Origin: a virus
DNA: 37,676 nucleotides
Reading direction: 5' to 3' (one strand)
IMG/VR virus record: IMGVR_UViG_3300046012_000698
Coordinates: 1 to 37,676 of that record
Shown here: in pieces, positions 626 through 26,837 of the stretch
Numbering within the stretch: the stretch's first letter is position 1
Layout: the number at the start of each line of letters is the position of its first letter
The notes under the pieces: generated by a model
What the model saw: the letters and a program-made list of their open reading frames with translations, nothing else
What the model was told of the DNA's origin: nothing
The model's database searches: none
Position numbers and translations under genes: made by a program

Positions 626-642
626 TCTCCTGTAGTAGGGTA
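626..642 (-). promoter_or_regulatory. Repeated 17-bp leader, copy 3
   Basis: Minus strand TACCCTACTACAGGAGA: one mismatch from the other two copies, in the TATAG core. It ends five bases before the ATG at 620. Confidence 0.7.
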
Positions 643-1388: not shown

Positions 1389-2336
1389 TCAGGGAGGAAA
1401 GTGAGTGCTGCAATACCGATGATAGGTTGTGGCCACACGCGTCACGAGCTGATTCCGAAAGTCACTCCACCAGAGGTTGTGCTGTGCATCGTGGATCAGC
1501 TTGCGGTGACGGAATGCTCGCTGCACGTCGCGCTGATTGGTGACCACGAAATCATCGATGATGTAGCCTGCACGACGCAGCATCGGTGCGGCTTCTGGCT
1601 CGAAGACCATCGGCAAACCAGCCGATAGCATCTCGTAGAATCGATTGGCGGGACTGTGGAAGTGCGCGTGTGATCGTGGATCTTCAATGTAGAGTCCCAA
1701 GCCGTGCGCGTTCAGCTCGGTATAGAAACTCCCTTTGGCCATCGTGGTCTGGCAGGTCGCGTGCGGATAGCGCGCGGCAAACTTCTTGCTGGCCGAGCTG
1801 ATCGACAGATCAATCCGGTGCTTGGCGAAGTAGCGATCGAACGATCGGGCACGACTCACGCGGAACGCACCATAGTAGAACAGATCGGTGCTCGCGTCGG
1901 AGCGAAACGGTAGCGGAGAACGCCGTGCGGTCAGCAGATTCCAGTTCATGTATCGGCTGGACGGTGTGCTCTTCGCATTGTCCTTCACCGTTGTCCAGAG
2001 ATCCATGTCTGGTAGTCCTTTGGCCTTGCGGATACGGAACGCTTTGCGAAACGGGCTCTCCGCTTGTCCCGAGTTGATCGGTGGATAGATGGCGTAGTCG
2101 TTCTGAATCCAGATGATGCGGCCTGCGCGTCGAATAGCCACGGCCAGATCAGGCAAGTGCGCGCAGAACGCGAACGCGCCATTCACCAGAATGAGCACGT
2201 CCAGGCGCTGCGCTCGAATGTCAGCTTCCCAGAACAGTGGTACATCCAACACACGTGATACGAATCGTGCAATCCGTACACTCGCGACAGTGCTGTGCTC
2301 ACTCGGTCGCAGAAACGAGAACACGCCAGCGTTCAT
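1389..2336 (-). CDS. GT-B fold glycosyltransferase
   Basis: A 315-residue protein. The C-terminal part carries a sugar-nucleotide binding region typical of GT-B enzymes: a VYIED-like segment (LGLYIEDPRSHAHF, about 213-226) followed by SPANRFYEMLSAGLPMVFE (228-246), where a conserved Glu contacts the donor sugar in this fold. The N-terminal half contains Rossmann-like strands (DVLILVNGAFAF, RIIWIQNDYAIY). Length fits a compact phage glycosyltransferase. Its ATG overlaps the stop of the P-loop kinase gene (ATGA at 2333-2336), so the two are translationally coupled, next to a methyltransferase. That context suggests it could add sugar to a modified base made by the same operon, but capsid, lipid or host glycan targets are possible. 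Family call is firm in fold, weak in substrate. Confidence 0.75.
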   Translation of the reverse strand: MNAGVFSFLRPSEHSTVASVRIARFVSRVLDVPLFWEADIRAQRLDVLILVNGAFAFCAHLPDLAVAIRRAGRIIWIQNDYAIYPPINSGQAESPFRKAFRIRKAKGLPDMDLWTTVKDNAKSTPSSRYMNWNLLTARRSPLPFRSDASTDLFYYGAFRVSRARSFDRYFAKHRIDLSISSASKKFAARYPHATCQTTMAKGSFYTELNAHGLGLYIEDPRSHAHFHSPANRFYEMLSAGLPMVFEPEAAPMLRRAGYIIDDFVVTNQRDVQRAFRHRKLIHDAQHNLWWSDFRNQLVTRVATTYHRYCSTHFPP

Positions 2337-2884
2337 CGGTCCCTCAGCTGCTTGAGAATCCACGGCACCGCATCCCGACGAGGATCGGTAAACCGTTTGA
2401 CGGTCATCCCCATCCAGTCAGCATCCACATACATCTCTCGTGCGCGCGCCAGTTTCGTGCGCATCGCCGTCATGCTGATCGGTGAGACGCGGCCTTTCCG
2501 CTGTTGTCGGCGTTTGATATTCGCAAGACAGCGCGCCAGCGGAGGATCGAAGAACGCATACCGCACATCCACACCGCGTTTGAAGTACTGAAGATACGGA
2601 CGCGTGGCGAGCACGACCCCTTCCAGCACGGCGTGGTAGTTTTCCGCCTCCGCCCACTGAAGTGCGGCGTAGATTAACGACGGCTGACGGATACAGTCGC
2701 AGCCGCCCATTGATCGTCCCTTCGTGTACGGACCAACGATCACGATCGGTCGCCGCACGCCGGGAAGATAGATGATCTGCGACATCGGCGGCGCGTATGG
2801 CTCGGTATCCGTGCTTCGGTCGATCAGCGCGCGCACCGCTGACGACTTTCCACTGCCATTGGTTCCGCGAATAACGATGATCAT
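2333..2884 (-). CDS. P-loop kinase, likely 5-hmdU DNA kinase-type
   Basis: A 183-residue P-loop kinase starting MIIVIRGTNGSGKSS, with Walker A GTNGSGKS at 7-14. The core reads IVIVGPYTKGRSMGGCD (47-63) and HAVLEGVVLATRPY (84-97); the GxY...GGCD pattern followed by an EG Walker-B-like strand is what I associate with phage kinases found beside DNA-base hypermodification genes, where they phosphorylate 5-hydroxymethyl-deoxyuridine in DNA. A basic lid (NIKRRQQRKGR, 122-132) follows. The start at 2884 overlaps the methyltransferase stop (ATGA). In some phages the kinase is fused to a helical domain; here a protein resembling that domain is encoded at 5174-6034. An ordinary deoxynucleotide kinase is the alternative. 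Confidence 0.7.
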   Translation of the reverse strand: MIIVIRGTNGSGKSSAVRALIDRSTDTEPYAPPMSQIIYLPGVRRPIVIVGPYTKGRSMGGCDCIRQPSLIYAALQWAEAENYHAVLEGVVLATRPYLQYFKRGVDVRYAFFDPPLARCLANIKRRQQRKGRVSPISMTAMRTKLARAREMYVDADWMGMTVKRFTDPRRDAVPWILKQLRDR

Positions 2885-3471
2885 GCCTGAGGCTTCAGGA
2901 GAAAGATGTGCCATCCTTGCGTGAACACCGACTGGTCCTTTGCGATCTTCCATCCGTGCTTCTTCAGCAGCGCCCGGAACTTCCGCTCGTCGTGCGTCGC
3001 GGTGTTGCTCTTCGGCACATAGGACTCGCCGAGTCGAATGGTACAGATGATGGCCCGCGAGCTGACCGCGAACAACTTGACCAGCACGGATCGCATGGCG
3101 GGTTCATCGATCAGATCGAGAAATCGCATGCACACTGACACGTCGACCGTTTTCACCTTGAGTTTCCGTACGTCCTTGCAGATCAACGACACGTGCGCGT
3201 GCCGCGTGGTCTTCTTGCGCGCGATGTCCAACATCGCATCAGACACATCGACCGCGATCACGCGTTTCACGCGGAGTGCATCGTAGAGCTCGAAGTAGCG
3301 CCCGGTCCCGCACGGCACATCGAGCACGGAACGGGGACGCAGCTTGTTCAACATCTGCCGCACCGTGTCGTTCTCCTCGTGCCAGCGTTGCTGCTTCTTT
3401 CGCTTCGTTTCGTACGTCTCGGCCATCCGGCCGTGGTACTTCCGACTCGTGGTGTCAATGGATACGGTCAT
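2881..3471 (-). CDS. Class I SAM-dependent methyltransferase
   Basis: 196 residues with a Rossmann methyltransferase core: motif I VLDVPCGTGRYFEL (49-62), the acidic end of strand 2 in VIAVDVSDAML (71-81) that binds the adenosyl ribose, and KDVRKL (99-104). The region after strand 4 (CMRFLDLID) lacks the NPPY or ENV motifs of DNA adenine or cytosine methyltransferases, so a small-molecule, sugar or modified-base substrate is more likely than an unmodified DNA base. ATGA overlap joins it to the DUF4406 gene upstream and to the kinase downstream, giving a coupled three-gene set with the glycosyltransferase. It may cap or trim a hypermodified base or its sugar; substrate is not visible in the sequence. 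Confidence 0.8.
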   Translation of the reverse strand: MTVSIDTTSRKYHGRMAETYETKRKKQQRWHEENDTVRQMLNKLRPRSVLDVPCGTGRYFELYDALRVKRVIAVDVSDAMLDIARKKTTRHAHVSLICKDVRKLKVKTVDVSVCMRFLDLIDEPAMRSVLVKLFAVSSRAIICTIRLGESYVPKSNTATHDERKFRALLKKHGWKIAKDQSVFTQGWHIFLLKPQA

Positions 3472-3950
3472 GATCCCTGCACTCCGTAGGCTTCGTCCAA
3501 TTCCGGCAGAAAAGGACGCTTGGCGATGTCAGAATGATGCGGATACTTCGCGATGTCCACGTGCTGCCACAGCGTCGCCTGCGCCGCGCGAATGTCCATC
3601 AGCACCTGATCGCGCCAGGACTCGTGCTGCATATCGAGCAGCACCAGTTCGCGCTTCATGGAGAATGCGACGAAGCACTCGATCAGCGCGCCCTTGCTCC
3701 GCTTGAACGTCGGGAGCACGCAGATACCCATGCAGCGCGGACTGACGATCACCGCGATGTCGCGGCACAGCGCCCGAGTCCACGCGTCCTGATCCGTGTT
3801 CGCTTCGGGGATGTCCAGTGTCAGCGGATTGAAGACACGATAGCCCGCGAGGCGGAGCTCGCGATCAGCCTCGTGAAACATCTCCAACTCCGCTGGAGAC
3901 GCGCCCGTGATCGAGCCGGACACGTAGACGAGATTGTTCTTCTGTGGCAT
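3468..3950 (-). CDS. DUF4406, nucleoside deoxyribosyltransferase-like
   Basis: 160 residues with the hallmark N-terminus LVYVSGSITG (7-16), then a helix (EMFHEADRELRLAGYRVFNP) and the SKGALIECFVAF segment (85-96), where Glu91 corresponds to the catalytic acid of nucleoside 2'-deoxyribosyltransferases. Proteins of this family cleave or exchange the base of a nucleoside or nucleotide, or act on related N-glycosides. In phages DUF4406 genes lie among nucleotide metabolism genes. Here it is coupled to the methyltransferase (ATGA at 3468-3471). A role in removing unmodified nucleotides from the pool, or in making a base-modification precursor, is plausible but inferred. AGG lies about six bases before the ATG. 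Confidence 0.75.
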   Translation of the reverse strand: MPQKNNLVYVSGSITGASPAELEMFHEADRELRLAGYRVFNPLTLDIPEANTDQDAWTRALCRDIAVIVSPRCMGICVLPTFKRSKGALIECFVAFSMKRELVLLDMQHESWRDQVLMDIRAAQATLWQHVDIAKYPHHSDIAKRPFLPELDEAYGVQGS

Positions 3951-3974
3951 TGGCCTGAGGGTGAAGGAAACGAG

Positions 3975-4406
3975 CTACTGCGCGGATTCCTGCTTGGCGA
4001 TCGCTTTTCGTCTACTCCATGATCGCTTTAATGCACGGCTGTGTTTTCGCTTTGCGTCAGGCATGTTGATTGCTCGTATCATTTTCTTACGTTGCGTTTT
4101 CCAGAGGTGAATCGCATTCACTCGGTTCTTTTCTTTCGCGCTTTCGGGATACGCATGCTTGTTTCGCTGCTGCTGAGAACGCGTCGCCCATCGCGCGTTA
4201 CCCGGTCTGTAGTCTCCATCATTGTCGATGCGATCCACACTATGGTCCTTGCTCGGGCGCTTTCCGAGTTCCTCGAACCATTCATCGAACGATACGAATC
4301 GGAACTTGATTCCACGTCGGTACGCATAGCATTTCGAAAATCGGCAGCGCGCTCGCGCATTGTAGTACGCCCTACGCTCCGGGCTTGTCGCCTTGACTTT
4401 TCGCAC
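3975..4406 (-). CDS. HNH homing-type endonuclease, copy 1
   Basis: 143 residues, very basic. The HNH core is [20 protein letters not shown] (55-74), the typical His...Asn pattern of phage free-standing HNH nucleases, preceded by a conserved lead ([22 protein letters not shown]). The tail is a long run of Lys/Arg-rich sequence suited to DNA binding. The best start is GTG at 4406, inside the end of the DUF3310 gene; no strong ribosome site is visible. It is clearly paralogous to the HNH gene at 4783-5187: both share KxGIKFxFxSF, LGKRPS and SVDRIDNDG. The DNA is AT-richer than its neighbours, consistent with a mobile gene. It probably nicks or cuts intron-less alleles in related phages. Confidence 0.85.
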
Positions 4407-4779
4407 GCTCCACCTCTATGAGTTTCTCGATATAGTGCTTGGCCTTTTCGAGATCCTGGATTCCGTTCTTGTTACGCCAGCGGAACAAGTACTTCGTCGC
4501 TTGGCCTTCGAAATATCCAAGCTCGAAGAGCACGACCATGTCCCAGTGCTGGAATGACGAACCCTGCGTGCGGTAGTGATCACCACCGACTTGCCGTGCA
4601 TTGGCGCTAACTCCAGACTGCACCCCGAAAATCTCGATGCCCGTCATATCGATGATATCGATGCCGTTCTCTGTCCGGGCTCCGCTTCCGTATCCAGCGC
4701 GCAGCAGCTTCTTGGAAATCTCGTCGAACGTTTCCTTGCTGACCGGAAGACGCGAACAGGTGTGTGTGTGAGTCGACAT
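4372..4779 (-). CDS. DUF3310 (SaV-like) phage protein
   Basis: 135 residues. The C-terminal half matches DUF3310: [10 protein letters not shown] (about 63-72), a central helix [18 protein letters not shown], then [20 protein letters not shown] and [10 protein letters not shown]. This domain is very common in phages, usually among nucleotide and replication genes; some members are annotated as nucleotide-kinase-like but the biochemistry is unsettled. The first 50 residues ([30 protein letters not shown]) form a separate N-terminal part I do not recognise. The start is firm: AAGGAGTAGGAT precedes the ATG. It lies between two HNH genes, so the operon has been invaded on both sides of it. Confidence 0.85.
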
Positions 4780-4782
4780 ATC

Positions 4783-5187
4783 CTACTCCTTGCTCCAAGT
4801 TTGTCGTCCAAATTTCCCATCGCGATGTTGCTTCTTAACTCGCCTACTCACCGCTTGTCTCCATTGCGGTGTACATCGTTTCTTCGCAGCGATACTCATG
4901 TTACGACGCGCTTGCTGCGAGTGTTTCCTGCGATTCTTTAGCTGTTGGCGCTGCGTCGCCCATCGCACATTGCACGGTTCGTAATGCCCATCGTTATCTA
5001 TGCGATCAACAGAATGAAATCGCGATGGTCGTTTTCCGAGCACGTGAAGCCATTGTTCGAACGACGTGAATAGGAATTTGATGCCGTGTTTCTTGTATGC
5101 AGGATAGTCGCATCGATAAATCGCATTCCAGTATGCTCGATACTCTGGAGTCTTCTGTCGCGGCGCGATGTACTTAGTCTTGTTCAC
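4783..5187 (-). CDS. HNH homing-type endonuclease, copy 2
   Basis: 134 residues with HNH core [20 protein letters not shown] and the lead KKHGIKFLFTSFEQWLHVLG, followed by a basic C-terminal tail (NRRKHSQQARRN, KKRCTPQWRQ). I place the start at GTG 5187, overlapping the end of the hypermodification-family gene by 14 bases, because the upstream extension of the frame is a shadow of that gene; no good ribosome site is visible, so the start is uncertain. It ends three bases before the DUF3310 ATG region. Paralogous to the 3975-4406 gene. The AT-richer composition marks a recent arrival. Confidence 0.82.
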   Translation of the reverse strand: MNKTKYIAPRQKTPEYRAYWNAIYRCDYPAYKKHGIKFLFTSFEQWLHVLGKRPSRFHSVDRIDNDGHYEPCNVRWATQRQQLKNRRKHSQQARRNMSIAAKKRCTPQWRQAVSRRVKKQHRDGKFGRQTWSKE

Positions 5188-6034
5188 GAGGCACGAATCT
5201 CTGCTTGGGTCGTCCTGTTCCGAGCTGAGTTCTTTTCCACTTGCTGAACTCACACAGACAGTTCTGCAGATCTTGTGCGTGCATCGGCGGCATCCCGGCA
5301 TGCCGGATCTGCGGACGCATCAAGATTCGTAGCTCAGTCAGTGCACGTCGCCACTCTGACTCGCGCCATCGAGTCGTGGGATCCATCGCCATCACATAGC
5401 TCATCCCGCGGCGACTCCCCGATCCACTAGCCGCGAAGGTCCACCAATCCACCGCTTGATCGAGTGGTGCGACATACTTGATATCGGCAATCACCTGTGC
5501 GGACATGAAGGATCCCATGTCTTGCTCATCGGACAACCGATTGTGGAACGCGCGCAGTGTTTCCGCATGGCGTGGCATGATCTTGACTCGGCGAGCCCAG
5601 AGCGGATCAAGCACGCGATCAGCTAGATAATCCGCCTTGGGCCGGGACTCTCCACAGTGGATCATGTACGCGCCGCTGAATGTCTTCAGTCCTGCATCGC
5701 GCCGTGCGTGCATGACTCGGAGAAACTGGTTCTTGTTCCAGCGTCCTGGAAGCGAGAACTCGGCCAGCGTCTCCGGATTGTTGATCAGCCGCGCCACCAC
5801 CATCGCGAACCACAGATGCGGATCATCCTTGTGCGGTTCTCTCCAGTGCTGCGCGATCCATCGTGTTGTCCGATCGAGTTCGCGATACACGTTACAGAAA
5901 CGATAGGCCGCGAGGATGGGATCGCTCGTCCACGGGCCCCGATGTCCGGCTTGTCGCCGTTCCCAGATGCGGTAGCGCTCGACCACGAACGCCACGAACT
6001 GTTCGAAGTGCGGAAAGGCGATCAACTGTTTCAT
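5174..6034 (-). CDS. DNA base hypermodification protein (HMUDK helical-domain family)
   Basis: 286 residues that I recognise as the family annotated as 5-hmdU DNA kinase helical domain or putative DNA base hypermodification protein. Signature blocks in order: WTSDPILAAYRFCNVYRELD, RWIAQHWREPHKDDPHLWF, VVARLINNPETLAEF, GLKTFSGAYMIH, DEQDMGSFMSAQVIADIKY, DWWTFAASGSGSRRGM and MHAQDLQNCLCEFSKWKR, ending in GRPKQRF. The mostly helical, DNA-glycosylase-like architecture is thought to engage DNA carrying a modified thymine. The gene starts at ATG 6034 inside an ATGA overlap with the KGG gene. The partner P-loop kinase is likely the 2333-2884 product, and the TS-like enzyme at 9039-10274 would supply hydroxymethyl-dUMP. 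An alternative is the related glutamyl/putrescinyl-thymine pyrophosphorylase group; I recall the family from sequence pattern only. Confidence 0.75.
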   Translation of the reverse strand: MKQLIAFPHFEQFVAFVVERYRIWERRQAGHRGPWTSDPILAAYRFCNVYRELDRTTRWIAQHWREPHKDDPHLWFAMVVARLINNPETLAEFSLPGRWNKNQFLRVMHARRDAGLKTFSGAYMIHCGESRPKADYLADRVLDPLWARRVKIMPRHAETLRAFHNRLSDEQDMGSFMSAQVIADIKYVAPLDQAVDWWTFAASGSGSRRGMSYVMAMDPTTRWRESEWRRALTELRILMRPQIRHAGMPPMHAQDLQNCLCEFSKWKRTQLGTGRPKQRFVPREQD

Positions 6035-6321
6035 GCCGTCTCGCTCCGAGCGATTGCCTGCACATAGCTGGCGCGATTGTCTTCGATCTCCGCGAGCCGT
6101 GCCGCTTTCCGCTGCGCCGCGCGGGTCGCTGCACCTTTCCGGCCGATCTCCGCCATGTGTGCGCGATTCTTCGACACGACGCGTCCACCTTTCCGTCCTG
6201 CCGTGACGGCTTCTTCCGTCGTGAACTCGTGCGCCGTCCCCTTCGCGTGCGCGGCCCGACCGCCTTTGCTGGCGATCTTCTGATGCGCGTCCTTCGTGAT
6301 CCGATGAAATCCATGCTTCAT
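6031..6321 (-). CDS. KGG-motif small basic protein
   Basis: 96 residues with repeated KGG-type motifs: IASKGGRAAHAKG (about 16-28), AGRKGGRVVSKN (42-53) and IGRKGAATRAA (58-68), followed by a charged helix (RKAARLAEIEDNRASYVQ). The repeats resemble those of the bacterial stress-protein KGG family (GsiB/YciG-like), small hydrophilic proteins whose biochemical role is not settled; basic KGG proteins are also seen in phages and may bind nucleic acid. AAGGA sits nine bases before the ATG at 6321. It is coupled by ATGA overlap to the hypermodification-family gene downstream. Confidence 0.7.
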   Translation of the reverse strand: MKHGFHRITKDAHQKIASKGGRAAHAKGTAHEFTTEEAVTAGRKGGRVVSKNRAHMAEIGRKGAATRAAQRKAARLAEIEDNRASYVQAIARSETA

Positions 6322-6335
6322 GATACGGGTCCTTG

Positions 6336-6464
6336 TTAGGGGTGAGGGAGCGGAGTCGCACCGCGCATGCGCGCGACCATGTATACAATCAGGAGCACAA
6401 CGTACACGAACACGATACACCGAACGATACGATGCATGCGATAGGGATCACGGATGCGCGTCAT
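6336..6464 (-). CDS. Single-span membrane mini-protein, 42 aa
   Basis: Only 42 residues: a basic N-terminus (MTRIRDPYRMHRIVR), one hydrophobic helix (CIVFVYVVLLIVYMVA, about 16-31) and a short tail. The ATG at 6464 overlaps the stop of the zinc-ribbon gene upstream (ATGA), which is the main reason to believe it is real. The positive-inside rule puts the N-terminus in the cytoplasm. Function unknown. Confidence 0.6.
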   Translation of the reverse strand: MTRIRDPYRMHRIVRCIVFVYVVLLIVYMVARMRGATPLPHP

Positions 6465-6643
6465 GGTCGCACGATCATGAAGATACGCTGCACGAAATCG
6501 ATCGCCAACGGGAGTAACATCGCATGCGCGCAATGCGTACACTGTCCGATCTTCGGCATCGGCGACGGCGAATAGTCCGTCCGCCGTGCGTACACGGTGC
6601 CGCATCCCGAACAGACATACAGATGCACTTCTTCTGGGGTCAT
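6461..6643 (-). CDS. Zinc-ribbon mini-protein, 60 aa
   Basis: Sixty residues with two CxxC knuckles, VCSGCGTVYARR (10-21) and GQCTHCAHAM (33-42), the arrangement of a rubredoxin-type zinc ribbon, followed by a hydrophobic helix (LLPLAIDFVQRIFMIV). Linked by ATGA overlaps to both neighbours. Such ribbons in phages bind nucleic acids or proteins; no specific role is visible. Confidence 0.65.
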   Translation of the reverse strand: MTPEEVHLYVCSGCGTVYARRTDYSPSPMPKIGQCTHCAHAMLLPLAIDFVQRIFMIVRP

Positions 6644-6882
6644 GATCCACGCTCCGGAGGTGTCCGACGTCGCCCCTGCGCCGACGGAGGTAACGTTCCC
6701 TCCAGCCGACGCAGCTTGCGGATGAGCGCCGACTTGGCGCGCACATACTCAGGCATTGTCTCCGAGTCGCGGGCCAGCGCGCGGACCGATCGCTCGAACC
6801 GCAAGAGCACGCTCTGCGTCCCGAGCGAGACGTGCTTGAGCCCGATGTTCCGTCGGGACACGGGCAGGTTGTTCATGTTCAT
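6640..6882 (-). CDS. Hypothetical helical protein, 80 aa
   Basis: Eighty residues starting MNMNNLPVSRRNIG. The middle (RFERSVRALARDSETMPEYV then RAKSALIRKLRRLEGTLPP) is charged and helical, with heptad-like spacing that could form a short coiled coil; the C-terminus is basic and Pro-rich. Its ATG lies in an ATGA overlap with the HD phosphohydrolase stop, and its own stop overlaps the zinc-ribbon ATG. No family recognised. Confidence 0.6.
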   Translation of the reverse strand: MNMNNLPVSRRNIGLKHVSLGTQSVLLRFERSVRALARDSETMPEYVRAKSALIRKLRRLEGTLPPSAQGRRRTPPERGS

Positions 6883-7547
6883 AGCCCATCATCATCCAGG
6901 AAGATTTTCCGATACCGCGTCATGAACGCGAGCTTGGCCAGATCCGGTGGCATCGGATGCGTCCAGTGTCCGTTGCTGATCAGCAACTGCTGCGCGACTC
7001 CAAGATCTGGGAGCGGCGTGTCGTCCTGCTGACGCGATCGCAGTTGAATGGTCGCCGGCATCAGCAACTGCGCTTCGAGCTTGATGATCTGGTCATCGTA
7101 GTGTTTCAGCTCGGGCGGCACGGGCCACGGCAGATTGAACTTGTCCGCGATCGCATGCAGCACGCGCTCTTCGATCGCCTTGAATTCCGGGAGCATCCAC
7201 TTGAGTGACCGGGTCATGTCGCCGACATAGGCCTCGGCGGCATCGTGGAGCAGTCCCCACGGTCGAAGGTCAAACGGCACGATCCGCGACACGAGAATAC
7301 TGTGCTGCGCAACGCTGAAGAACGACCGACAGGCGCCATTCCAGTGGCAGATATTCGACAGGTGATGGGCGATGTCTTCGAGATCCACCATCTCCCATGA
7401 TGGATTGGTGAAGTACATCCGTCGTCCACTGACCGTGGTCAGGAACGGACCAACCTGGCGCATCGCCGTGTACGCGATCGGACTGATGTCGCAATTCGCC
7501 GGAGTGCACTCCATCGTGTGCTCGTGCTCATGATCCCATTCAGGCAT
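6879..7547 (-). CDS. HD-domain phosphohydrolase (YfdR/YfbR-like)
   Basis: 222 residues with an HD metal-dependent phosphohydrolase core: DIAHHLSNICHWNGACRSFF (58-77), VAQHSILVSR (79-88) with a metal-ligand His82, the LLHDAAEAYVGD signature (99-110) with His101-Asp102, and a distal Asp in KHYDDQIIKLE (148-158). Phage and prophage members with this FTNPSWEMVDLEDIAHHLSN-like N-terminus resemble YfdR; relatives such as YfbR are 5'-deoxynucleotidases acting on deoxynucleoside monophosphates. In this operon, with a TS-like enzyme and DUF4406, it plausibly reshapes the deoxynucleotide pool, for example by removing normal dTMP or dUMP. The start overlaps the upstream gene by eight bases. Confidence 0.82.
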   Translation of the reverse strand: MPEWDHEHEHTMECTPANCDISPIAYTAMRQVGPFLTTVSGRRMYFTNPSWEMVDLEDIAHHLSNICHWNGACRSFFSVAQHSILVSRIVPFDLRPWGLLHDAAEAYVGDMTRSLKWMLPEFKAIEERVLHAIADKFNLPWPVPPELKHYDDQIIKLEAQLLMPATIQLRSRQQDDTPLPDLGVAQQLLISNGHWTHPMPPDLAKLAFMTRYRKIFLDDDGL

Positions 7548-7725
7548 CGGAAAGAAGGTGAGAAGGTGAATGATAGTTCAGGAACCCAATCGGCTCCGGG
7601 CGGAAATTAGGCAGTAGTGGCTTCGTATCGCCGAACGCATAATCGCACATCCGCGCAATCATTTCAGCTCGCGTGCCCGGAAGGATCAGTGCGAGCACCA
7701 AACAGCGGCAGTTGAATTCTTTCAT
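7540..7725 (-). CDS. Hypothetical small protein, 61 aa
   Basis: Sixty-one residues starting MKEFNCRCLVLALILPG. The ATG at 7725 overlaps the stop of the gene upstream (ATGA), and its stop overlaps the HD gene start, so it fills the operon without a gap; the longer frame extending upstream in this phase is a shadow of the 110-aa gene. Residues 8-16 are hydrophobic, and a Pro-rich C-terminus follows (PLLPNFRPEPIGFLNYHSPS). Too short for a confident membrane or signal call. Function unknown. Confidence 0.55.
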   Translation of the reverse strand: MKEFNCRCLVLALILPGTRAEMIARMCDYAFGDTKPLLPNFRPEPIGFLNYHSPSHLLSDA

Positions 7726-8054
7726 CGAGTGTCTACGCTCGCAGAGATGATTCGCATTTCGTCGATCACGCGGACCGAACCTTCCTGGTGTTCCTTGATC
7801 ACGAGACCGTGCACGCCAACCGACAGAAAGTTGGTGAGCGCGGCTTTGTAGGCTTCGCCCGTGATGAACTCGTCCGGACCCATGCGATAGAGTTCGTGGT
7901 CGACGAGCGAATCCCGATGATGTTCCACCATCTGCTTCGCTTCCGTGTCGGCGCGCTCGTCTGGAATCCGTGGTGTATCTGGAGTCGGTTGATCTGCGGT
8001 CATGATCGTGTGCCAGAAGGTGTACGAACAACGGATACGAAGCAGATTAGACAT
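7722..8054 (-). CDS. Hypothetical protein, 110 aa
   Basis: 110 residues from ATG 8054, preceded by GCAGGACACCG. A second in-frame ATG at 8003 would remove the first 17 residues (MSNLLRIRCSYTFWHTI), but has no ribosome site. The body is acidic and helical (DERADTEAKQMVEHHRDSLV), then GPDEFITGEAYKAALTNFL and a beta-rich end (VHGLVIKEHQEGSVRVIDEM). No family recognised. It lies between the protease and the 61-aa gene, coupled downstream by ATGA. Confidence 0.6.
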   Translation of the reverse strand: MSNLLRIRCSYTFWHTIMTADQPTPDTPRIPDERADTEAKQMVEHHRDSLVDHELYRMGPDEFITGEAYKAALTNFLSVGVHGLVIKEHQEGSVRVIDEMRIISASVDTR

Positions 8055-8073
8055 CGGTGTCCTGCGTGAATGA

Positions 8074-9042
8074 CTACCCTTCGATCAGCCGGATGACCCA
8101 GAAGTCTTCCGCGAGATCCGGGCTGAGCACGTAGTCCCACGGCAGCGTGAAGTAGCCCTTGTCGCCCCAGTCCTTTCCCCACGAGTTCCGCACTTCCACG
8201 CGATCGGCCGAATAGCCGACGAGCAGAATGGCGTGTCCGCCTTGCAACTGCTCCGTCGGTGCAGGGAGTGGGACCGTGCCCGTGGTCGCGACCGCATCGC
8301 TTTCAAACGAGTCGAACACGCTGATGCCCGTGATGATCGGATGTCCGGCCGCGAGTGCCTGTTGAATAGCCATCCGGGTCTGGCGCACGCGCGCGTATTC
8401 CAGCGCCTGATGCTGAATGGCCGCGGAGTCATACTTCTGATCCGGCGCATCGCGGAATCGCTGCGGAATGTACGGCCAGAACTGCTCTGGGGCGACTCCT
8501 TCCTGCGCGACGACCGTGATTGCATCGCGCACCATGCAGCCCGCGTCGGATCCGATGGTCCCTTCGATCTTGCGCGCGCCGTAGTAGATGGCGAGGCGTG
8601 ACGGGGTGAAGTTCGGCAGATGCTGCTTCCGGAGCAGATACTGCATCGCGGCGGCGGTCGCATTGCCGACACACGATCCGAGCTCGCCCTGATCGTAGAT
8701 CGGGAACTGGAACGGACTCGAATGTTGCAGGTGCACTTCTTCCGGCGGGGTCGCCGCCAGTTCGTGCGGCGCGAGTTGCAACACGTGATCCCGATGATCC
8801 GGCAGATCGGGGATGTAGCCGTAGTAGTGATTGTCACGCGGTTGAATCGCGGTCATGATGGATTCCTGGAGTTGTGCACGGAGTCGCGCCTCGTCCGTGA
8901 TGGGATGAATGGTGATTTCGTGCTGGCCCACGTGCGCGTAGATAACTTCACCAGCGCCGTGACAGAGCGTGCAGAATGCCACGAGCGGCGAGCGATCCAG
9001 GCACGAGGGGCACAGCACACGTTCGACATGATGCAGCTTCAC
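8074..9042 (-). CDS. Papain-like (C1) cysteine protease with N-terminal zinc finger
   Basis: 322 residues from a GTG at 9042 that overlaps the TS-like stop (GTGA). Residues 11-27 hold two CxxC pairs, the second as CTLCHGAGEV, the CxxCxGxG pattern of DnaJ zinc fingers. From about residue 70 it is a C1-type protease: YYGYIPDLPDHRDH (propeptide-like lead), YDQGELGSCVGNATAAAM with Gln118 and nucleophile Cys124, QLQGGHAILLVGYS with His270, and VEVRNSWGKDWGDKGYF with Asn286. The full triad and oxyanion Gln are present, so it should be active. An ATG at 8856 with AGGAA upstream would give a 260-aa form without the zinc finger; both could be made. Possible targets are capsid or host proteins. No signal peptide. 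Confidence 0.85.
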   Translation of the reverse strand: MKLHHVERVLCPSCLDRSPLVAFCTLCHGAGEVIYAHVGQHEITIHPITDEARLRAQLQESIMTAIQPRDNHYYGYIPDLPDHRDHVLQLAPHELAATPPEEVHLQHSSPFQFPIYDQGELGSCVGNATAAAMQYLLRKQHLPNFTPSRLAIYYGARKIEGTIGSDAGCMVRDAITVVAQEGVAPEQFWPYIPQRFRDAPDQKYDSAAIQHQALEYARVRQTRMAIQQALAAGHPIITGISVFDSFESDAVATTGTVPLPAPTEQLQGGHAILLVGYSADRVEVRNSWGKDWGDKGYFTLPWDYVLSPDLAEDFWVIRLIEG

Positions 9043-10274
9043 AGCGTGGGAGCGGTGGACGGTGAAGGGGCGGGGAACAGGGAAGGCCGATGCCGATTGG
9101 CTTCCTGCCGATGTGCGAACGAGCGATTGAGCCACTGTTCGCCGGCGGTACACCAGTCGATCGTGTAGCCGTAGCGCTCCAGCATCGCGGTGTTGAGATC
9201 AGACAGCAGCCCGATGGCACTCGGCGTGTCGCCGCGCTGATGCACGAGAAACGCGACGCACATGGGAATGACGACGTGTGGGAAGAACTGATTGCCGTAC
9301 AGGTTCTCTTCGATCAGATACTGTCGTCCGCGCGCGTACACCGGAAAGAGCGGAAACTCCGCCATGCTCGCAATCTGGCTGACGGTGCGCGTCAGCTCGG
9401 CGTCGAACAGATCGGGCATGGTGACCAGCGGATAAGGACGAATCGGCGCGATGGTGAGGTCGTACGGATTCTGGAACAGGAGATCGTCATCTGTCCAGTC
9501 CATGTCAGACGGATCAACCAATCCGTCGGTGGCAAAGTTGATGTCCGGATCCAGTGGCCAGAACGTGCTCCACCGATAGGGCTGCGTCTGATACGCATGG
9601 AAGTCGCCGCTGATCTGCCAGTAGCGACCGACCGAACACCCGATGCGCGCGGCGAGGTATTCCTGGAGCACGGAGAACTGCACGGCGTTTGCCCCGTAGC
9701 AGCCCCAGATTGCATCGTTGCTGCGACAGTACACGTGCAGATCCAGCGCGCCGTTCGTGATCCGCAGCTTGATCAGGTCGTTGCACGGAATGTCCTTACT
9801 GGCGATGCCGAGGTCGAGTGCGGGATCCCACATGCCGATGACCACGCGGCGATCGGCCGAATTCTGTTTCAGCATCCGCACCGCGACATCAAGCTGATCG
9901 AGTTCGGGAGTGCGTCCGCTGGGATCTCGATGGTTGGGCAAGGCCCATCGCCGCCACCGATGCCCGTAGGCGCCGTGGAACGTCATACCGTCGTCGCTGA
10001 ACTCCGCCATGCGCGGAATGAACTGCGTGAGCGTGCGCGTGTCATTCCGCCCGTTGAGCATCCACAGGCTCTCGATCAGATGGAAGAACGGATTGGCGTT
10101 CCGCTGCGCGGAGAACAGCACTCGCTCGGTCGGATGATCGTACACGGTCGTGACGGGATCATCGACGCGCAACACATCACCGTTCCGGGACGGCGACAGT
10201 TGCCCTTCGGCGTAGAGGAGACGCAGTCCTCTTCGATACGCGTCGTTGACATTGCGTGCTGCGATGACGTGCAT
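9039..10274 (-). CDS. Thymidylate synthase / dCMP-hydroxymethylase family enzyme
   Basis: 411 residues, longer than bacterial ThyA (264). Family blocks: NPFFHLIESLWMLNGRNDTR (61-80), MTFHGAYGHRWRRW (97-110), a phosphate-binding segment DRRVVIGMWDP (141-151), the catalytic loop KDIPCNDLIKLRI with Cys164, CRSNDAIWGCYGANAVQFSV (183-202) and YWQISGDFHAYQ (218-229). The GCYGANAVQF block replaces the GLPFNIA of ThyA; phage members of this subgroup include true synthases and dNMP hydroxymethylases. With kinase and hypermodification-family genes in the same operon I favour dUMP 5-hydroxymethylation, but the sequence alone does not settle dUMP versus dCMP or methyl versus hydroxymethyl. GGAG lies about ten bases before the ATG. 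Confidence 0.85.
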   Translation of the reverse strand: MHVIAARNVNDAYRRGLRLLYAEGQLSPSRNGDVLRVDDPVTTVYDHPTERVLFSAQRNANPFFHLIESLWMLNGRNDTRTLTQFIPRMAEFSDDGMTFHGAYGHRWRRWALPNHRDPSGRTPELDQLDVAVRMLKQNSADRRVVIGMWDPALDLGIASKDIPCNDLIKLRITNGALDLHVYCRSNDAIWGCYGANAVQFSVLQEYLAARIGCSVGRYWQISGDFHAYQTQPYRWSTFWPLDPDINFATDGLVDPSDMDWTDDDLLFQNPYDLTIAPIRPYPLVTMPDLFDAELTRTVSQIASMAEFPLFPVYARGRQYLIEENLYGNQFFPHVVIPMCVAFLVHQRGDTPSAIGLLSDLNTAMLERYGYTIDWCTAGEQWLNRSFAHRQEANRHRPSLFPAPSPSTAPTL

Positions 10275-12451: not shown

Positions 12452-12639
12452 CGTAGTAGAACACTAACGATCAGTCGACGAGCGTGCGATTCTGCCATGC
12501 AGCATTGGGAGGGATGGAATGATGTACTCGCGTCTGGTACTTCCATGGGGGAAGGTTGCGGAAGTGCGGTTCCTGGACTAGCTTGAGCCCCGGCGCCCAG
12601 AGTGCCACGGAACCCCGGTCCAGAATAACGGAGGACGGC

Positions 12640-13299
12640 ATGAGCAGTCGGAAGGACCCGAGCACAACGCGACGGAAGACCACGCGATCTCCGAAAGGGA
12701 CCACGCGGTCTGCCGAGACGTTGTATGCGGGATTCCGACTCTGGACGAGTGACTCGTCTCCCCAGTGGCACGGCGTGAAGAAGATGCGCTACGTCTTCTG
12801 GCGGATGATCGCGGGACTCACGGTGACCGATGCCCTCGCGGAGATCCACTGGCATCCGGTGGAATTCTGGACGCTGGTGGATCTCGAGCGTCATGCCCCG
12901 TTCTGGCAGGAATACAAGTATGCGCGGAGTTTGCAAGCCCGCGCGATCAGTGACGGGATTGTCGCGATTGCCGAAGGACGTGATCGAGTCTCGCGCGTGG
13001 CGAATCGGAATCTGCGCCGGATCATCCGGAAGTCTGTGCGGCGCCTACACAAACGGTCATCGCGATCAACCATCCTCACGGCGCAACTGGCCGATGCGGT
13101 GACCATGCAGCAGCGGGATGTCCTCGCGCGGAATAAGCTCCAGATCGTCGCGGCACAGTGGATTGCCAAGACGGCGAATCCCGCCGAGTTCGGGGACCGC
13201 TCCACCGTAGGACTCGAGACTCCGCCGGGACCGAATGGGCACGCCACCGCGATCCACGTGCAGTTTGTCGCGCCTGACGGCAGCGTGGTGCAGCCATGA
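12640..13299 (+). CDS. terS: Terminase small subunit
   Basis: 219 residues from the ATG at 12640, preceded by GGAGGACGGC. After a basic disordered lead (RKDPSTTRRKTTRSPKG) comes an HTH-like region (RYVFWRMIAGLTVTDALAEI, about 48-67) and the block YKYARSLQARAISDGIVAIA (92-111). The distal part, RNKLQIVAAQWIAKTANPAE then FGDRSTVGLET, is typical of Sf6-type small terminases, which recognise the packaging site and feed DNA to the large subunit. It is followed by a 77-aa gene and the large subunit with ATGA overlaps. Packaging sites of such phages often lie in or just upstream of this gene. Confidence 0.85.
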   Translation: MSSRKDPSTTRRKTTRSPKGTTRSAETLYAGFRLWTSDSSPQWHGVKKMRYVFWRMIAGLTVTDALAEIHWHPVEFWTLVDLERHAPFWQEYKYARSLQARAISDGIVAIAEGRDRVSRVANRNLRRIIRKSVRRLHKRSSRSTILTAQLADAVTMQQRDVLARNKLQIVAAQWIAKTANPAEFGDRSTVGLETPPGPNGHATAIHVQFVAPDGSVVQP

Positions 13300-23619: not shown

Positions 23620-25347
23620 ATGCTGCCTGCCTTCTGGACCCCGCTCCTCGGTCGCGAGCTCGACGCGACTCCGCTGCCCGATACTCGGGGACAGCGAGTT
23701 GTGGCGTGCCTCAACGTCTGGAACGATGCGGATGCACTCCGCCATTCGGTTCCGTCTTGGATCCATTCTGTGGATCACGTGATTGCCGTAGATGGCAGCT
23801 ACGGCACGTTGGGGTGCACGATCTCGACCGACGGAACGCGGGAGTATCTGACAAATACATGTCCATCGATCCAGTGGATCGATCGTCCCGGTGTGGATCA
23901 GTGCGCAAAGCGGAATGCGTACCTCCAGGCCGGACGAGTAGGTGACTATCTGTTCATCGTCGATGCGGATGAGTCGGTGCAGTCTGCCGAAGCCTTGCGT
24001 CGGTTGCCCATGTGCGACATCGGCTGGGTCCGCATCCTCAGTCCGATGTACGCACGTCCCTACGGACAGCCGCGCGTGTTGCGCTGGCGTCCTGATCTCG
24101 AGTACCGCGGACGACATCACTGGATCTACGACGGGGACCGCCTGTTCTGCACGCATCAGTATGGCGGGCCAGGATACGCGCACCGTCCCGTGAATCTCAC
24201 GCTGTCCAATGAGCGGAACGCACATCGGTCTGCGTCACGCTTGCAGGTCAAGTCCACGCATCTGGCGCAGCAGACCGCGACCGAACGGGTCGAGTCGGCG
24301 ACACCGCGCACGATCATGTCCGACTCGCAGATCGGCGCGCGCGAGTGTTTGTGGATCTTGAACTATGCGTATCGCGATGACGGCTTGGCCCCGTCACGAT
24401 TCCACACGGCGATCAATCGCACGACTCCGCATAGCTCCCTGTTCTTCAAGGCACGGCCGGGGCCCTTCAGCGTTCCACAGCAGTTCATGGCGAAGCCGGA
24501 TCATGACAAGCTGCGTCAGGCAGCAGACTCATGCGACATCCTGCATCTGCACAGCACGACCGTCTTTCCCGCGCCACTCACGCGCCGTGCCCCGATGGTA
24601 TTCCATCATCATGGATCACTGCTTCGCGCGAATGCGGATGCGCACACGAAAGACGCCATGCGACATCGCGCGCTGGTGCTGGTGTCGAACCTGGAATTGC
24701 TCTCCTGGACCGGGGATCATCCCGCGTTCTTTCTCCCGAACACGATGCCAGTCGCGCGCTACCGTGCGTTGGCCGAGCGCGTCGCAGACACGCAGTCCGC
24801 GGCGGATCGGCCCTTCCGCATCGCGCACTCACCGACGCACCAGCATCGGAAAGGGACGGAGGTGTTTCTGCGAGCGATGACCAACTGCGCGAAGCGCGGA
24901 CTCCATGTGGAGCCAGTGCTCATCGAGAATCAGACACACGCCGCAACGCTGGCGCTGAAGGCGACATGCGATGCGGCGTTCGACAGCTTCTGGCTCGGCA
25001 TCCAGTGCAGCGGATTGGAAGTGGCGGCGATGGGAAAGCCAGTGATTGCGGGCGATCCGATCGTGGCCGAACGCTATCGTGCGTACTTCGGTGCGGTGCC
25101 GTACACCTACGCGAACACGCTGGAAGAACTCGAAGCCGTGATTACGCGGTTGGTGACGGACGAACACTTCCTCGCTGAAGAAGCGGATCGGGTGAATGCC
25201 TACGTGATCGCGCATCATGGAGAAGCGGCAGTCGCACTCACCTATCTCGATTACCTGGACATGGCGTATCAGTGGCGGAAGACCCCGCGTCGGAAGACCG
25301 TGGTCAGCGCGCAGCCTCTCCACACGTTCAAGCGGGTGATGCGATGA
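23620..25347 (+). CDS. Two-domain glycosyltransferase (GT2 plus GT-B)
   Basis: 575 residues. Residues 25-190 form a GT-A (family 2-like) domain: QRVVACLNVWNDADALRHSV (25-44), HVIAVDGSYGT (53-63), QCAKRNAYLQAGRVGDYLFI VDADE (split here) with the DxD-type metal motif at 115-117. Residues 300-575 form a GT-B-like domain: DILHLHSTTVF (306-316), APMVFHHHGSLLRAN (324-338), RIAHSPTHQHRKGTEVFLRA (400-419), SFWLGIQCSGLEVAAMGKPV (456-475) and IAGDPI. It thus has two putative active sites, for two successive sugar transfers. It overlaps the next glycosyltransferase by ATGA. Tail or capsid protein, DNA, or host surface glycans are possible acceptors. Confidence 0.85.
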   Translation: MLPAFWTPLLGRELDATPLPDTRGQRVVACLNVWNDADALRHSVPSWIHSVDHVIAVDGSYGTLGCTISTDGTREYLTNTCPSIQWIDRPGVDQCAKRNAYLQAGRVGDYLFIVDADESVQSAEALRRLPMCDIGWVRILSPMYARPYGQPRVLRWRPDLEYRGRHHWIYDGDRLFCTHQYGGPGYAHRPVNLTLSNERNAHRSASRLQVKSTHLAQQTATERVESATPRTIMSDSQIGARECLWILNYAYRDDGLAPSRFHTAINRTTPHSSLFFKARPGPFSVPQQFMAKPDHDKLRQAADSCDILHLHSTTVFPAPLTRRAPMVFHHHGSLLRANADAHTKDAMRHRALVLVSNLELLSWTGDHPAFFLPNTMPVARYRALAERVADTQSAADRPFRIAHSPTHQHRKGTEVFLRAMTNCAKRGLHVEPVLIENQTHAATLALKATCDAAFDSFWLGIQCSGLEVAAMGKPVIAGDPIVAERYRAYFGAVPYTYANTLEELEAVITRLVTDEHFLAEEADRVNAYVIAHHGEAAVALTYLDYLDMAYQWRKTPRRKTVVSAQPLHTFKRVMR

Positions 25348-26837
25348 CCTTCGACGCATTGACCATCGTCACGTCCTGTGTGAACTACGGCAAGTACCTG
25401 ACGGACTGGGCGAACACGATCGTCGCTCAGTCAGTTCGTCCAGGTCGGGTCTGCATCTTCACGCACGGCACCGTGATCGATCAGGAACAGGGGCACGCGG
25501 CGATGCTGCGGATCCTGGACGCGGGAATCTCGTGCTATCACGTGCACGACCCCAAGCGTCTGGACTTCGGCGCTGCACGCAATCGGGCGGTCGAACTGTC
25601 GGAGTCGTCCTGGGTCATGCATCTGGACGCGGACGACATGCTGCTCCCGAACGCGATTGCCGAACTGCATCGACTGGCGCCGAGCGCAGATGTCGTGCAG
25701 GCGGGCTATGAGCGCGTCGGGACTATCACCGGATTTAGCACGCGCAAGCGGCTGTATGCAGGCGCCGATGGACTCGACGCGCTGAACCTGTCGGCACTGG
25801 CCAGCGGGAACTCGATGTTCCGTCGGTCGTTCTGGGAGTTGTCACCCTATCGCACGGATCTACTCGGTGCCTGGGACACGGCGCTGTGGATTGGCTTCGC
25901 GCGACTTGGTGCACGATTCCGTCCGACGACCATCCCGATCTTCCAGTATCGGCAGCACGCCGATAGTATCTTCAATCAGCGGCGGTCGACGATGGGATGG
26001 ACCCGCGTGCACACGTCGGCGATGCTCAAGAAGCTCCGCCGGAACTATCATGGCGTTGCCGTGATTGTTCCACGCGACTGCGGACGGGCGCGGTCGCCTG
26101 AACGTGATCGGAACTTCGCCTTCGTGCTGGATCACTACGCACGGTATCATCCCGAATGGCCGATCATCGAAGGAATTTGTCCGTCGACGACGTGGATCAA
26201 AGGATCAGCGATCAATCAGGCACTCGGGAGTTGCACGGCCGAGACGCTGATCATTGCCGATGCTGATGTGATCGTCGATCCGGATGCGTTGAACGCAGCA
26301 GTCGCGGCGGTGCAGTCTGGTACGGCGTGGGCAATGCCACATCGTCAGGTGCGTCGAGCCTCGGCGGCCGCGACGGCCGAACTCTGCGGAACACGGACCG
26401 AAGCCATTCGGCTTGATCCCAGCGATCTAGATCGTCCCGCCTATGAGGGTGCTCCCGGCGGGGGAATCGTCGCGGTCCCGCATGCGATGTACGACGCCAT
26501 CGGTGGGATTCCGTACGTGTTCCGTGAATGGGGTTCAGAAGATCGGGCACTCGCGTTGCTCTGCGACACCTTGCTCGGTCCGTGTCTGCGCGGGTCGGCG
26601 GATCTCATTCACCTCTGGCATCCCGCACAGCCGCAGACGCGGACCAGTCAGCAGAACGTGCGCCTGCTCCAGAACCTTGGGCACATCGCGCGTCGCGGAC
26701 CCGACTCATTGGTGCGCGCCGTGCACGCGATGCCGAGGCCTGTCGTGCAGTCTGTGCGGAAAGCAAAGAGCGTGGTCACACCGATCAATCATGCAATGGT
26801 CCGCGGGCGCATTGATCAACGACGGAGTGCACCATGA
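25344..26837 (+). CDS. Tandem GT2 glycosyltransferase
   Basis: 497 residues from ATG 25344 (ATGA with the preceding gene). First GT-A domain: LTIVTSCVNYGKYLTDWANT (6-25), KRLDFGAARNRAVELSESSW then VMHLDADDMLLPNA, with DADD as the metal-binding motif. Second GT-A domain: GVAVIVPRDCGRARSPERDR, TWIKGSAINQALGSCTAETL, IIADADVIVDPDAL, and YEGAPGGGIVAVPHAMYDAI then GGIPYVFREWGSEDRALALL, close to the C-terminal galactosyltransferase-type pattern (GG-x-W-G-x-ED). So again two catalytic units in one chain. Together with the gene before it, four sugar-transfer domains sit inside the structural operon, likely for virion glycosylation, DNA glycosylation being the alternative. Confidence 0.85.
   Translation: MTFDALTIVTSCVNYGKYLTDWANTIVAQSVRPGRVCIFTHGTVIDQEQGHAAMLRILDAGISCYHVHDPKRLDFGAARNRAVELSESSWVMHLDADDMLLPNAIAELHRLAPSADVVQAGYERVGTITGFSTRKRLYAGADGLDALNLSALASGNSMFRRSFWELSPYRTDLLGAWDTALWIGFARLGARFRPTTIPIFQYRQHADSIFNQRRSTMGWTRVHTSAMLKKLRRNYHGVAVIVPRDCGRARSPERDRNFAFVLDHYARYHPEWPIIEGICPSTTWIKGSAINQALGSCTAETLIIADADVIVDPDALNAAVAAVQSGTAWAMPHRQVRRASAAATAELCGTRTEAIRLDPSDLDRPAYEGAPGGGIVAVPHAMYDAIGGIPYVFREWGSEDRALALLCDTLLGPCLRGSADLIHLWHPAQPQTRTSQQNVRLLQNLGHIARRGPDSLVRAVHAMPRPVVQSVRKAKSVVTPINHAMVRGRIDQRRSAP

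Follow-up and report, generated by a model that had tools for sequence, protein, structure and literature searches.

An operon on the minus strand of a viral contig probably encodes a thymidine hypermodification pathway that ends in glycosylation and not in amino-acid transfer, with tailoring by a kinase and a methyltransferase, and the best reading of this cassette is a new variant of thymidine hypermodification, namely a 5-hmdU glycosylation system. The window analysed here is the whole stretch of 37,676 nucleotides of an IMG/VR linear virus contig (IMGVR_UViG_3300046012_000698), which is probably a fragment. A preliminary description of this DNA had proposed thymidine hypermodification via 5-hmdU, in agreement with the TS-like enzyme and the 5-hmdU kinase family proteins present, and had suggested that the final modification could be new; the latter suggestion survives in a more specific form, as a putative glycosylated 5-hmdU.

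Gene content of the cassette

All five genes noted before (TS-like enzyme, kinase, HMUDK_hel, HD and DUF4406 proteins) were recovered on the minus strand at their earlier coordinates, with Pfam and PHROGs scores far beyond chance. The earlier list was incomplete, as it lacked a SAM-dependent methyltransferase gene (2881-3471), and a glycosyltransferase candidate (GTL, 1389-2363) was outside the noted coordinates.

The TS-like protein (9039-10274) matches thymidylate synthase PF00303 (E = 2e-20) and phrog_5131 (E = 1.5e-102), and its Cys164 aligns as the catalytic cysteine, as had been proposed for a TS/hydroxymethylase-family enzyme. Because Asn196 stands at the position of the Asp of T4 gp42 dCMP hydroxymethylase, dUMP rather than dCMP fits as the substrate, and with its catalytic Cys and uracil-type Asn the protein is a probable dUMP hydroxymethylase. 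The HD phosphohydrolase gene described earlier (6879-7547) is predicted to encode a deoxynucleoside 5'-monophosphatase (phage dNMP phosphatase phrog_318, E = 1.1e-52), and an HD gene adjoins TS in M6, PaMx11, FP1 and Pam3 as well. The DUF4406 gene is likewise present (3468-3950; PF14359, E = 3e-12), its product being nucleoside 2-deoxyribosyltransferase-like (phrog_355, E = 1e-11), and so is a gene for a DUF3310 protein (4372-4779; PF11753, E = 1e-5), which is commonly tied to the module and was present in 37 HMUDK_hel (HEL) loci.

The cassette continues on the same strand with the methyltransferase P0003 (2881-3471; PF13649, E = 1.2e-13), a tailoring candidate, the P-loop kinase P0002 (2333-2953, likely start 2884), the GTL P0004 (1389-2363, likely start 2336) and a small HTH-like protein (1156-1413), a conserved boundary gene that closes the cassette and whose homologues follow it in the loci L009 and L033. 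Given the starts 2884 and 2336, 4-nt ATGA overlaps join these genes: the methyltransferase is coupled in this way with DUF4406, the kinase start overlaps the methyltransferase stop and the GTL start overlaps the kinase stop.

The kinase and HMUDK_hel are separate proteins

HMM searches against hypermodification families, as proposed in the preliminary description, led from the kinase to PF18748 and from the helical protein to PF18723. The kinase scored 31.6 bits against PF18748 (HMUDK_HMUD1; E = 1.4e-7; cut-off 27), in line with the proposed 5-hmdU DNA kinase family, and its G-x-x-G-x-G-K and G..D residues are invariant across 17 relatives. HMUDK_hel (aGPT-PPlase1, P0001, 5174-6034) scored 137 bits against PF18723 (E = 1e-39; cut-off 25) and thus belongs to the HMUDK helical-domain family, as had been proposed, and not to an unrelated one. 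Separate genes for the two proteins had been regarded as a novelty; this is an ordinary, already known arrangement, found in M6 (gp54/gp55), PaMx11 (gp49/gp50), Bordetella FP1, Pam3 and Rhizobium RHph_TM26.

The model of HMUDK_hel is all-helical with an HhH-DNA-glycosylase-like fold (AF2 pLDDT 90.3), and its best PDB matches are the PaMx11 glycinyltransferase (8z2m/8z2n) and DNA glycosylases. The closest fold is 8z2n (Z 10.6), although the helical nature of the model and Foldseek E-values of 0.17-0.23 weaken this match as a sign of an ADDT-type fold. This closest solved protein, the 5-PmdU glycinyltransferase gp46 (an amino acid:DNA transferase, ADDT), shares 8-12% identity with HMUDK_hel and belongs to a different Pfam family. 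HMUDK_hel was also considered as an ADDT itself, to which it is structurally nearest, but this was rejected, as M6 and PaMx11 carry both proteins and the Pfam families differ.

The earlier view of HMUDK_hel as simply a part of the kinase does not hold. No kinase was detected within 8 kb of HMUDK_hel in 33 of 33 loci bearing a TAGT-type glycosyltransferase, and none in the record of the cultured E. coli phage EP_H11 (titled complete genome), which has HMUDK_hel and TS. Since a PF18748 search (0 of 9 records matched) had no positive control among its records, our own kinase alignment A4 was used, which recovered three positive controls and had no match in EP_H11 or in ten further records.

A BGT-like glycosyltransferase candidate

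GTL matches no Pfam, NCBIfam or PHROGs family. For its AlphaFold (AF2) model (pLDDT 91.8), the top PDB match was T4 DNA beta-glucosyltransferase (BGT; Foldseek E = 1.9e-9, Z 20.2 over 285 residues), ahead of AGT (Z 16.8) and generic GT-B enzymes (Z at most 16.6). When 31 GTL sequences were compared with 7 BGTs using hhalign, a probability of 97.6% and a pairwise E of 4e-12 were obtained, versus 0.1-0.8% for controls. In this profile alignment, from which residue equivalences were taken rather than from superposed coordinates, BGT residues D100, R191, R195, R269 and E272 correspond to D89, R168, R171, R241 and E244 of P0004; the former are invariant in the 7 BGTs, save for E272 (6 of 7), and the latter are kept in at least 29 of the 31 GTL family members. 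GTL combines a BGT-like GT-B fold with equivalents of the catalytic Asp and the UDP-binding Arg/Arg/Arg/Glu, as positioned by profile alignment.

An hmmsearch of the GTL alignment A1 against PDB sequences returned no BGT, a direct sequence search of the family against PDB chains gave nothing meaningful, and hhalign gave a weak result (8%) when BGT was represented by one sequence, only the family-to-family comparison being informative. Because BGT is found by profile-profile comparison and by no direct HMM search, GTL is classed from its sequence as a remote BGT relative and not as BGT itself. That the similarity emerges only via models or profiles is a point against the glycosylation reading. 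In contrast to the shared fold, profile homology and equivalent residues, identity to T4 BGT amounts to 12-13% with no direct HMM match, and the genetic neighbours of GTL are HMUDK_hel and a TS of the dUMP type, not a dCMP hydroxymethylase. T4 BGT is able to glucosylate 5hmU in oligonucleotides (PMC4111573). The preliminary description had recognised no amino-transferring end enzyme, which stands in so far as no ADDT was detected in the window, but it overlooked GTL directly downstream of the kinase because 1389-2336/2363 lies just beyond the coordinates noted.

In 21 of 24 GTL sequence clusters the fetched locus contained HMUDK_hel or TS, against 190 of 50,697 phage records with an HMUDK_hel match overall; both were absent from the fetched piece in three (S13-like T4 relatives, and the pieces L015 and L009 at contig ends). 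GT-B enzymes are common and what they glycosylate does not follow from the fold alone, so that GTL could act on a protein, a lipid or a surface glycan, e.g., a host receptor, next to the kinase by accident. We consider this very improbable, given that the fold and the profile comparison alike single out a glucosyltransferase of DNA bases as the best match, that GTL is co-located with HMUDK_hel/TS in these 21 clusters and coupled through ATGA, and that other sugar genes replace it in the same slot of a sister contig (L034).

Glycosyltransferases and ADDT in related loci

Searches with PF18724 and our own ADDT profile gave no match in the window, an incomplete contig, which agrees with the earlier statement that the fragment has no recognised amino-acid transferase; ADDT was also undetected in all GTL-bearing records, including those of 60-111 kb, by a PF18724 search that found M6, PaMx11 and L071 and missed L004, though the near-identical L005 ADDT matches by hmmscan. 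Similarly, rSAM, PLP, FAD-lyase and acetyltransferase tailoring genes were not found at E<=1 in the window of this incomplete contig. With M6 and PaMx11 the window shares the TS-like enzyme, the 5-hmdU DNA kinase, a separate HMUDK_hel, the HD phosphatase and DUF3310; in place of their ADDT (gp51/gp46) and rSAM/PLP or FAD/acetyltransferase tailoring, it has a BGT-like glycosyltransferase and a methyltransferase.

Across the 78 HMUDK_hel loci nearest to the window locus, glycosyltransferases occurred in 48 and ADDT in 8, and never together (0/8 with ADDT versus 48/70 without; Fisher p = 2.5e-4, which overstates independence as the loci are related). TAGT-type glycosyltransferases (PF20691) accounted for 33 of the 78 loci, and their co-location with HMUDK_hel loci has been noted in pelagiphages (PMC9599517). 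Such loci resemble the window in combining TS, HMUDK_hel and a glycosyltransferase, but have a GT-A instead of a BGT-like GT-B enzyme, no detected kinase and no methyltransferase.

The contig being incomplete, an ADDT could lie off it, a possibility that counts against glycosylation. An ordinary amino-acid branch, with ADDT and tailoring enzymes beyond the ends of this linear fragment and GTL serving something else, would fit the M6/PaMx11 core of kinase, HMUDK_hel and TS and the presence of a kinase alongside ADDT in 8 of 8 HEL-seeded loci. It seems unlikely, however, since no more than about 4 kb separate ADDT from the kinase in M6, PaMx11, FP1, Pam3 and TM26, since ADDT profiles were negative in the window and every GTL-bearing record, and since ADDT and glycosyltransferases exclude each other in HEL-seeded loci.

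The kinase, the methyltransferase and the proposed pathway

Of the 24 GTL clusters, 12 also have a kinase, these kinases falling into two distinct clades, and none is detectable in the other half. As EP_H11 belongs to the latter, combining GTL, HEL and TS, GTL seems not to need a phosphate leaving group. The kinase itself is what a leaving-group mechanism, as in the amino-acid branch, would call for and has no explanation in a sugar pathway, which also speaks against glycosylation.

The solved structures nearest to P0003 include sugar-biosynthesis methyltransferases, e.g., CalS10, and aminosugar N-methyltransferases. Within HEL loci the methyltransferase occurred only alongside both GTL and kinase (8/8), and among GTL clusters in 6/12 with kinase versus 0/12 without (p = 0.014, overstating independence as loci are related). 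No relative was found in cultured phages by tblastn at E 0.01, and the methyltransferase-seeded loci L012/L013 had no kinase, HEL or GTL, the TS of L012 being about 7 kb off. In the sister contig L034, a UDP-sulfoquinovose synthase (SQD1 match, E = 3e-98) and two glycosyltransferases occupy the methyltransferase-kinase-GTL slot, preceding the same small HTH-like boundary gene.

These associations also bear on a glycosyl-phosphate branch, in which the kinase would make 5-phosphomethyl-dU and GTL would glycosylate the phosphate (or the kinase would phosphorylate the sugar) before the methyltransferase caps a phosphodiester- or phosphate-bearing sugar, which would resemble SP-15, whose DNA has a glucuronyl-phosphodiester on a modified uracil (PMC5977210). 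The kinase-GTL coupling, the two kinase clades among the 12 clusters and the restriction of the methyltransferase to clusters with kinase and GTL favour this idea. We regard it as rather doubtful, given that at least in the half of the GTL clusters without detectable kinase GTL must act without phosphate. Also, the acceptor of BGT is a hydroxyl.

The computations give the identities of the genes, the conservation of fold and residues, the linkage within the cassette and the anticorrelation of glycosyltransferases with ADDT; from these we infer, for the preferred glycosylation pathway, all catalytic steps and their order, the sugar, its linkage and the role of the kinase. The TS-like enzyme would form 5-hydroxymethyl-dUMP, which on incorporation would replace some of the thymidine, and the HD phosphatase would probably lower competing nucleotides. 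HMUDK_hel, with its glycosylase-like fold, would probably recognise or flip the modified base in DNA, and GTL would take a sugar from a nucleotide-sugar and attach it to the 5-hydroxymethyl group, so that the product would be a glycosyl-5-hmdU resembling base J. Being translationally coupled to GTL, the kinase and the methyltransferase may decorate the product further, by phosphorylating the sugar or separate 5-hmdU sites and then methylating.

Implications

More tentatively, HMUDK_hel/TS loci may serve in general as a platform on which amino-acid transferases and glycosyltransferases of at least three classes replace one another as the end enzyme. The window cassette would then make a phosphorylated, methylated sugar on 5-hmdU, an undescribed base, and the sister virus a sulfoquinovose-bearing one. 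To our knowledge, all thymidine hypermodifications that depend on a kinase derive from amino acids. If the glycosylation reading is true, sugar attachment would be the commoner fate of 5-hmdU beside HMUDK_hel in uncultured phages (48 versus 8 of the nearest loci), phages would possess a nucleobase similar to base J, and DNA glycosyltransferases acting on 5-hmdU could be drawn from a BGT-related family that has no name so far. The reading would also open the role of HMUDK_hel to testing, since the protein is present in many loci with no detectable kinase, and it would give a common pathway that disguises phage DNA against restriction a large sugar branch beside its known amino-acid branch.

Probable hypermodification genes of the window

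All proteins named in the preliminary description were found at their places on the minus strand. Pfam assigned the kinase gene (2333-2953, -; likely start 2884) to PF18748, with a score above the cut-off, and the 286-aa protein (5174-6034, -) to the HMUDK_hel family (PF18723, E = 1e-39), named the DUF4406 gene (3468-3950, -) and placed the TS-family enzyme (9039-10274, -), with its catalytic Cys at position 164, in PF00303; PHROGs named the HD protein (6879-7547, -) a deoxynucleoside monophosphatase. Members of the TS family with Asn at the relevant position prefer uracil, those with Asp cytosine; because Asn196 takes the place of the Asp when aligned to T4 dCMP hydroxymethylase, dUMP is the expected substrate of the TS-like enzyme. 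PHROGs (phrog_800) and GenBank label the kinase family 'terminase small subunit', and a separate terminase small subunit-like ORF lies at 12556-13299 (+). Between the TS and HD genes, a papain-family C1 protease is encoded (8074-9153, -; PF00112, E = 2.7e-15), and the operon is interrupted by an HNH endonuclease-like gene (3975-4406, -; phrog_3377) and by another ORF (4783-5301, -) with a similar sequence.

The separation of kinase and helical protein, which had been considered special, is an ordinary arrangement, as both are also encoded by separate, neighbouring genes in M6 (gp54/gp55), PaMx11 (gp49/gp50), Bordetella FP1, Pseudanabaena Pam3 and Rhizobium RHph_TM26. The helical partners of M6 and PaMx11 match the same family, PF18723. 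These two phages encode a further protein (M6 gp51, PaMx11 gp46) that is an amino acid:DNA transferase (ADDT, PF18724); the structure of PaMx11 gp46 (PDB 8z2m) is titled 'glycinyltransferase'. Since a search of the window at a threshold as loose as E = 1 detected no relatives of ADDT, radical-SAM (rSAM), PLP, FAD-lyase or acetyltransferase enzymes, the absence of a recognised amino-transferring end enzyme was correctly described for this fragment. The linear IMG/VR contig (37,676 bases) encodes no tRNA and is probably a fragment.

A candidate end enzyme related to T4 beta-glucosyltransferase

An ORF at 1389-2363 (-; likely start 2336), beyond the module as first delimited, directly follows the kinase and matches no Pfam, NCBIfam or PHROGs family. 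Given the likelier starts, chosen from the family alignment, 4-nt ATGA overlaps join the genes for DUF4406, methyltransferase (2881-3471, -), kinase and this protein, here called GTL. Its AlphaFold model (19 sequences; pLDDT 91.8) had T4 DNA beta-glucosyltransferase (BGT) as top solved match (Foldseek E = 1.9e-9; Z = 20.2 over 285 residues, 3.6 A), compared with Z = 16.8 for T4 alpha-glucosyltransferase and 16.6 and below for other GT-B enzymes. Profile-profile comparison of 31 GTL members with 7 BGTs gave 97.6% (pairwise E = 4e-12), whereas six unrelated control profiles gave 0.1-0.8%. GTL residues D89, R168, R171, R241 and E244 align with BGT D100, R191, R195, R269 and E272, of which we take D100 to be the catalytic base and the Arg/Glu set to bind UDP. 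From sequence and model, the overlooked end enzyme is likely GTL, a member of a BGT-related family. A protein with family-2 glycosyltransferase domains (PF00535) is encoded within the structural gene block (25272-26837, +) and could glycosylate a virion protein.

An IMG/VR scan with GTL retrieved 18 loci, one of them a contig already found with the kinase. When 34 GTL loci were clustered at 80% identity, HMUDK_hel was present in 20 of the 24 groups, TS in 20 and either in 21, against a background of HMUDK_hel matches in 190 of 50,697 phage records; GTL belongs to the hypermodification module. A PF18724 search, which recovered 3 of 4 positive controls, found ADDT in no GTL-bearing record, including the cultured E. 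coli phage EP_H11 (111 kb) and several 60-96 kb contigs, and our own ADDT profile had no match in GTL loci either.

The kinases linked to GTL belong mostly to two separate, well-supported clades: that of the window (support 100/100) and a second comprising ten rows (100/99). The methyltransferase (METHYLTRANSFERASE) occurred in 6/12 GTL clusters with kinase versus 0/12 without (p = 0.014, which overstates independence), and in 8/8 HMUDK_hel loci with methyltransferase both GTL and kinase were present. Among the solved structures most closely related to it are CalS10 and aminosugar N-methyltransferases. The pattern suggests that the methyl group would be placed on a product requiring both GTL and kinase. 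The annotated complete genome of EP_H11 encodes GTL, HMUDK_hel and TS and has no detectable kinase; by this gene content, phosphorylation of the base would not be a requirement for GTL.

Candidate end enzymes at HMUDK_hel loci

A scan with an HMUDK_hel alignment yielded 78 new loci, from the best 80 of at least 577 and hence closest to the window. Within 8 kb of HMUDK_hel, these best matches encoded TAGT-type GT-A glycosyltransferases (PF20691) in 33, GTL in 12, ADDT in 8 and GT4 in 3 cases, no recognised end-enzyme class in 22, and two classes together in none. Among them, any glycosyltransferase was found in 0/8 ADDT loci versus 48/70 others (p = 2.5e-4, independence being overstated as loci are interrelated). 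Because the kinase accompanied ADDT in 8/8, GTL in 4/12 and TAGT in 0/33 of these closest loci, HMUDK_hel is more than a kinase part. The model of this helical protein most resembles the ADDT glycinyltransferase (Z = 10.6) and, after it, HhH DNA glycosylases, with weak Foldseek E-values, and would fit a role in base recognition or base flipping.

GTL is absent from the related locus L034, where HMUDK_hel shares 58% identity with the protein of the window. Methyltransferase, kinase and GTL are replaced there, in the interval preceding the same small HTH gene, by a weak TAGT relative, a homologue of SQD1, the UDP-sulfoquinovose synthase (1i24, E = 3e-98), and a GT4 glycosyltransferase. This swap of other sugar genes into the same interval is independent support, at the level of gene content, for a slot serving sugar transfer. 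SQD1 lies between the two glycosyltransferases (L034:12057-15288), and sulfoquinovose on phage DNA is possible; no SQD1 relatives at E = 1e-30 were found in 50,697 phage records. Other GTL, TAGT and GT4 loci have an added radical-SAM/SPASM enzyme; in L016, L017, L018, L020, L026, L031 and L038 its gene lies just downstream of GTL and possibly serves sugar tailoring. A sulfotransferase-like gene (weak PF17784) lies near the HMUDK_hel/TS loci L029, L045 and L076.

A Twister-P5 ribozyme (363-425, -; RF02684, 44.4 bits), also present in L009 (2702-2771) and L034 (16579-16634), ends in the window and L034 just upstream of a repeated leader element. This element, CCTACCCTACTAYAGGAGA, occurs just upstream of the ATG of small ORFs at 92-106, 339-353 and 627-641 (-), three matches versus 0.17 expected, and also in L025, L033 and L034; it includes a Shine-Dalgarno sequence and is similar to T7-type promoters in their 3' part.

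Proposed pathway

Most likely, dUMP would be hydroxymethylated and incorporated into DNA, where GTL, using an Asp base like BGT, would glycosylate it, and kinase and methyltransferase would decorate it further. Such chemistry is plausible because T4 BGT itself can glucosylate 5hmU in single strands and mispaired duplex (PMC4111573). For paired 5hmU, the exposure of the base that is lacking with T4 BGT may come from HMUDK_hel. As phosphorylation of 5-hmdU by kinase is in itself sufficient to block several restriction enzymes (PMC7653180), a mixed modification is also possible.

Thymidine hypermodification and DNA glucosylation are each already known, and the co-location of a TAGT-like gene with TS and HMUDK_hel (aG/PT-PPlase1) has been noted in pelagiphages (PMC9599517). 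The literature searched, which did not extend to the central papers of the pathway, gave no account of the GTL family, its coupling or the slot pattern. New here are a putative, as yet unnamed BGT-related family, apparently coupled with kinase and methyltransferase, and, among HMUDK_hel loci (best 80 of at least 577), what appears to be an exclusive slot for end enzymes.
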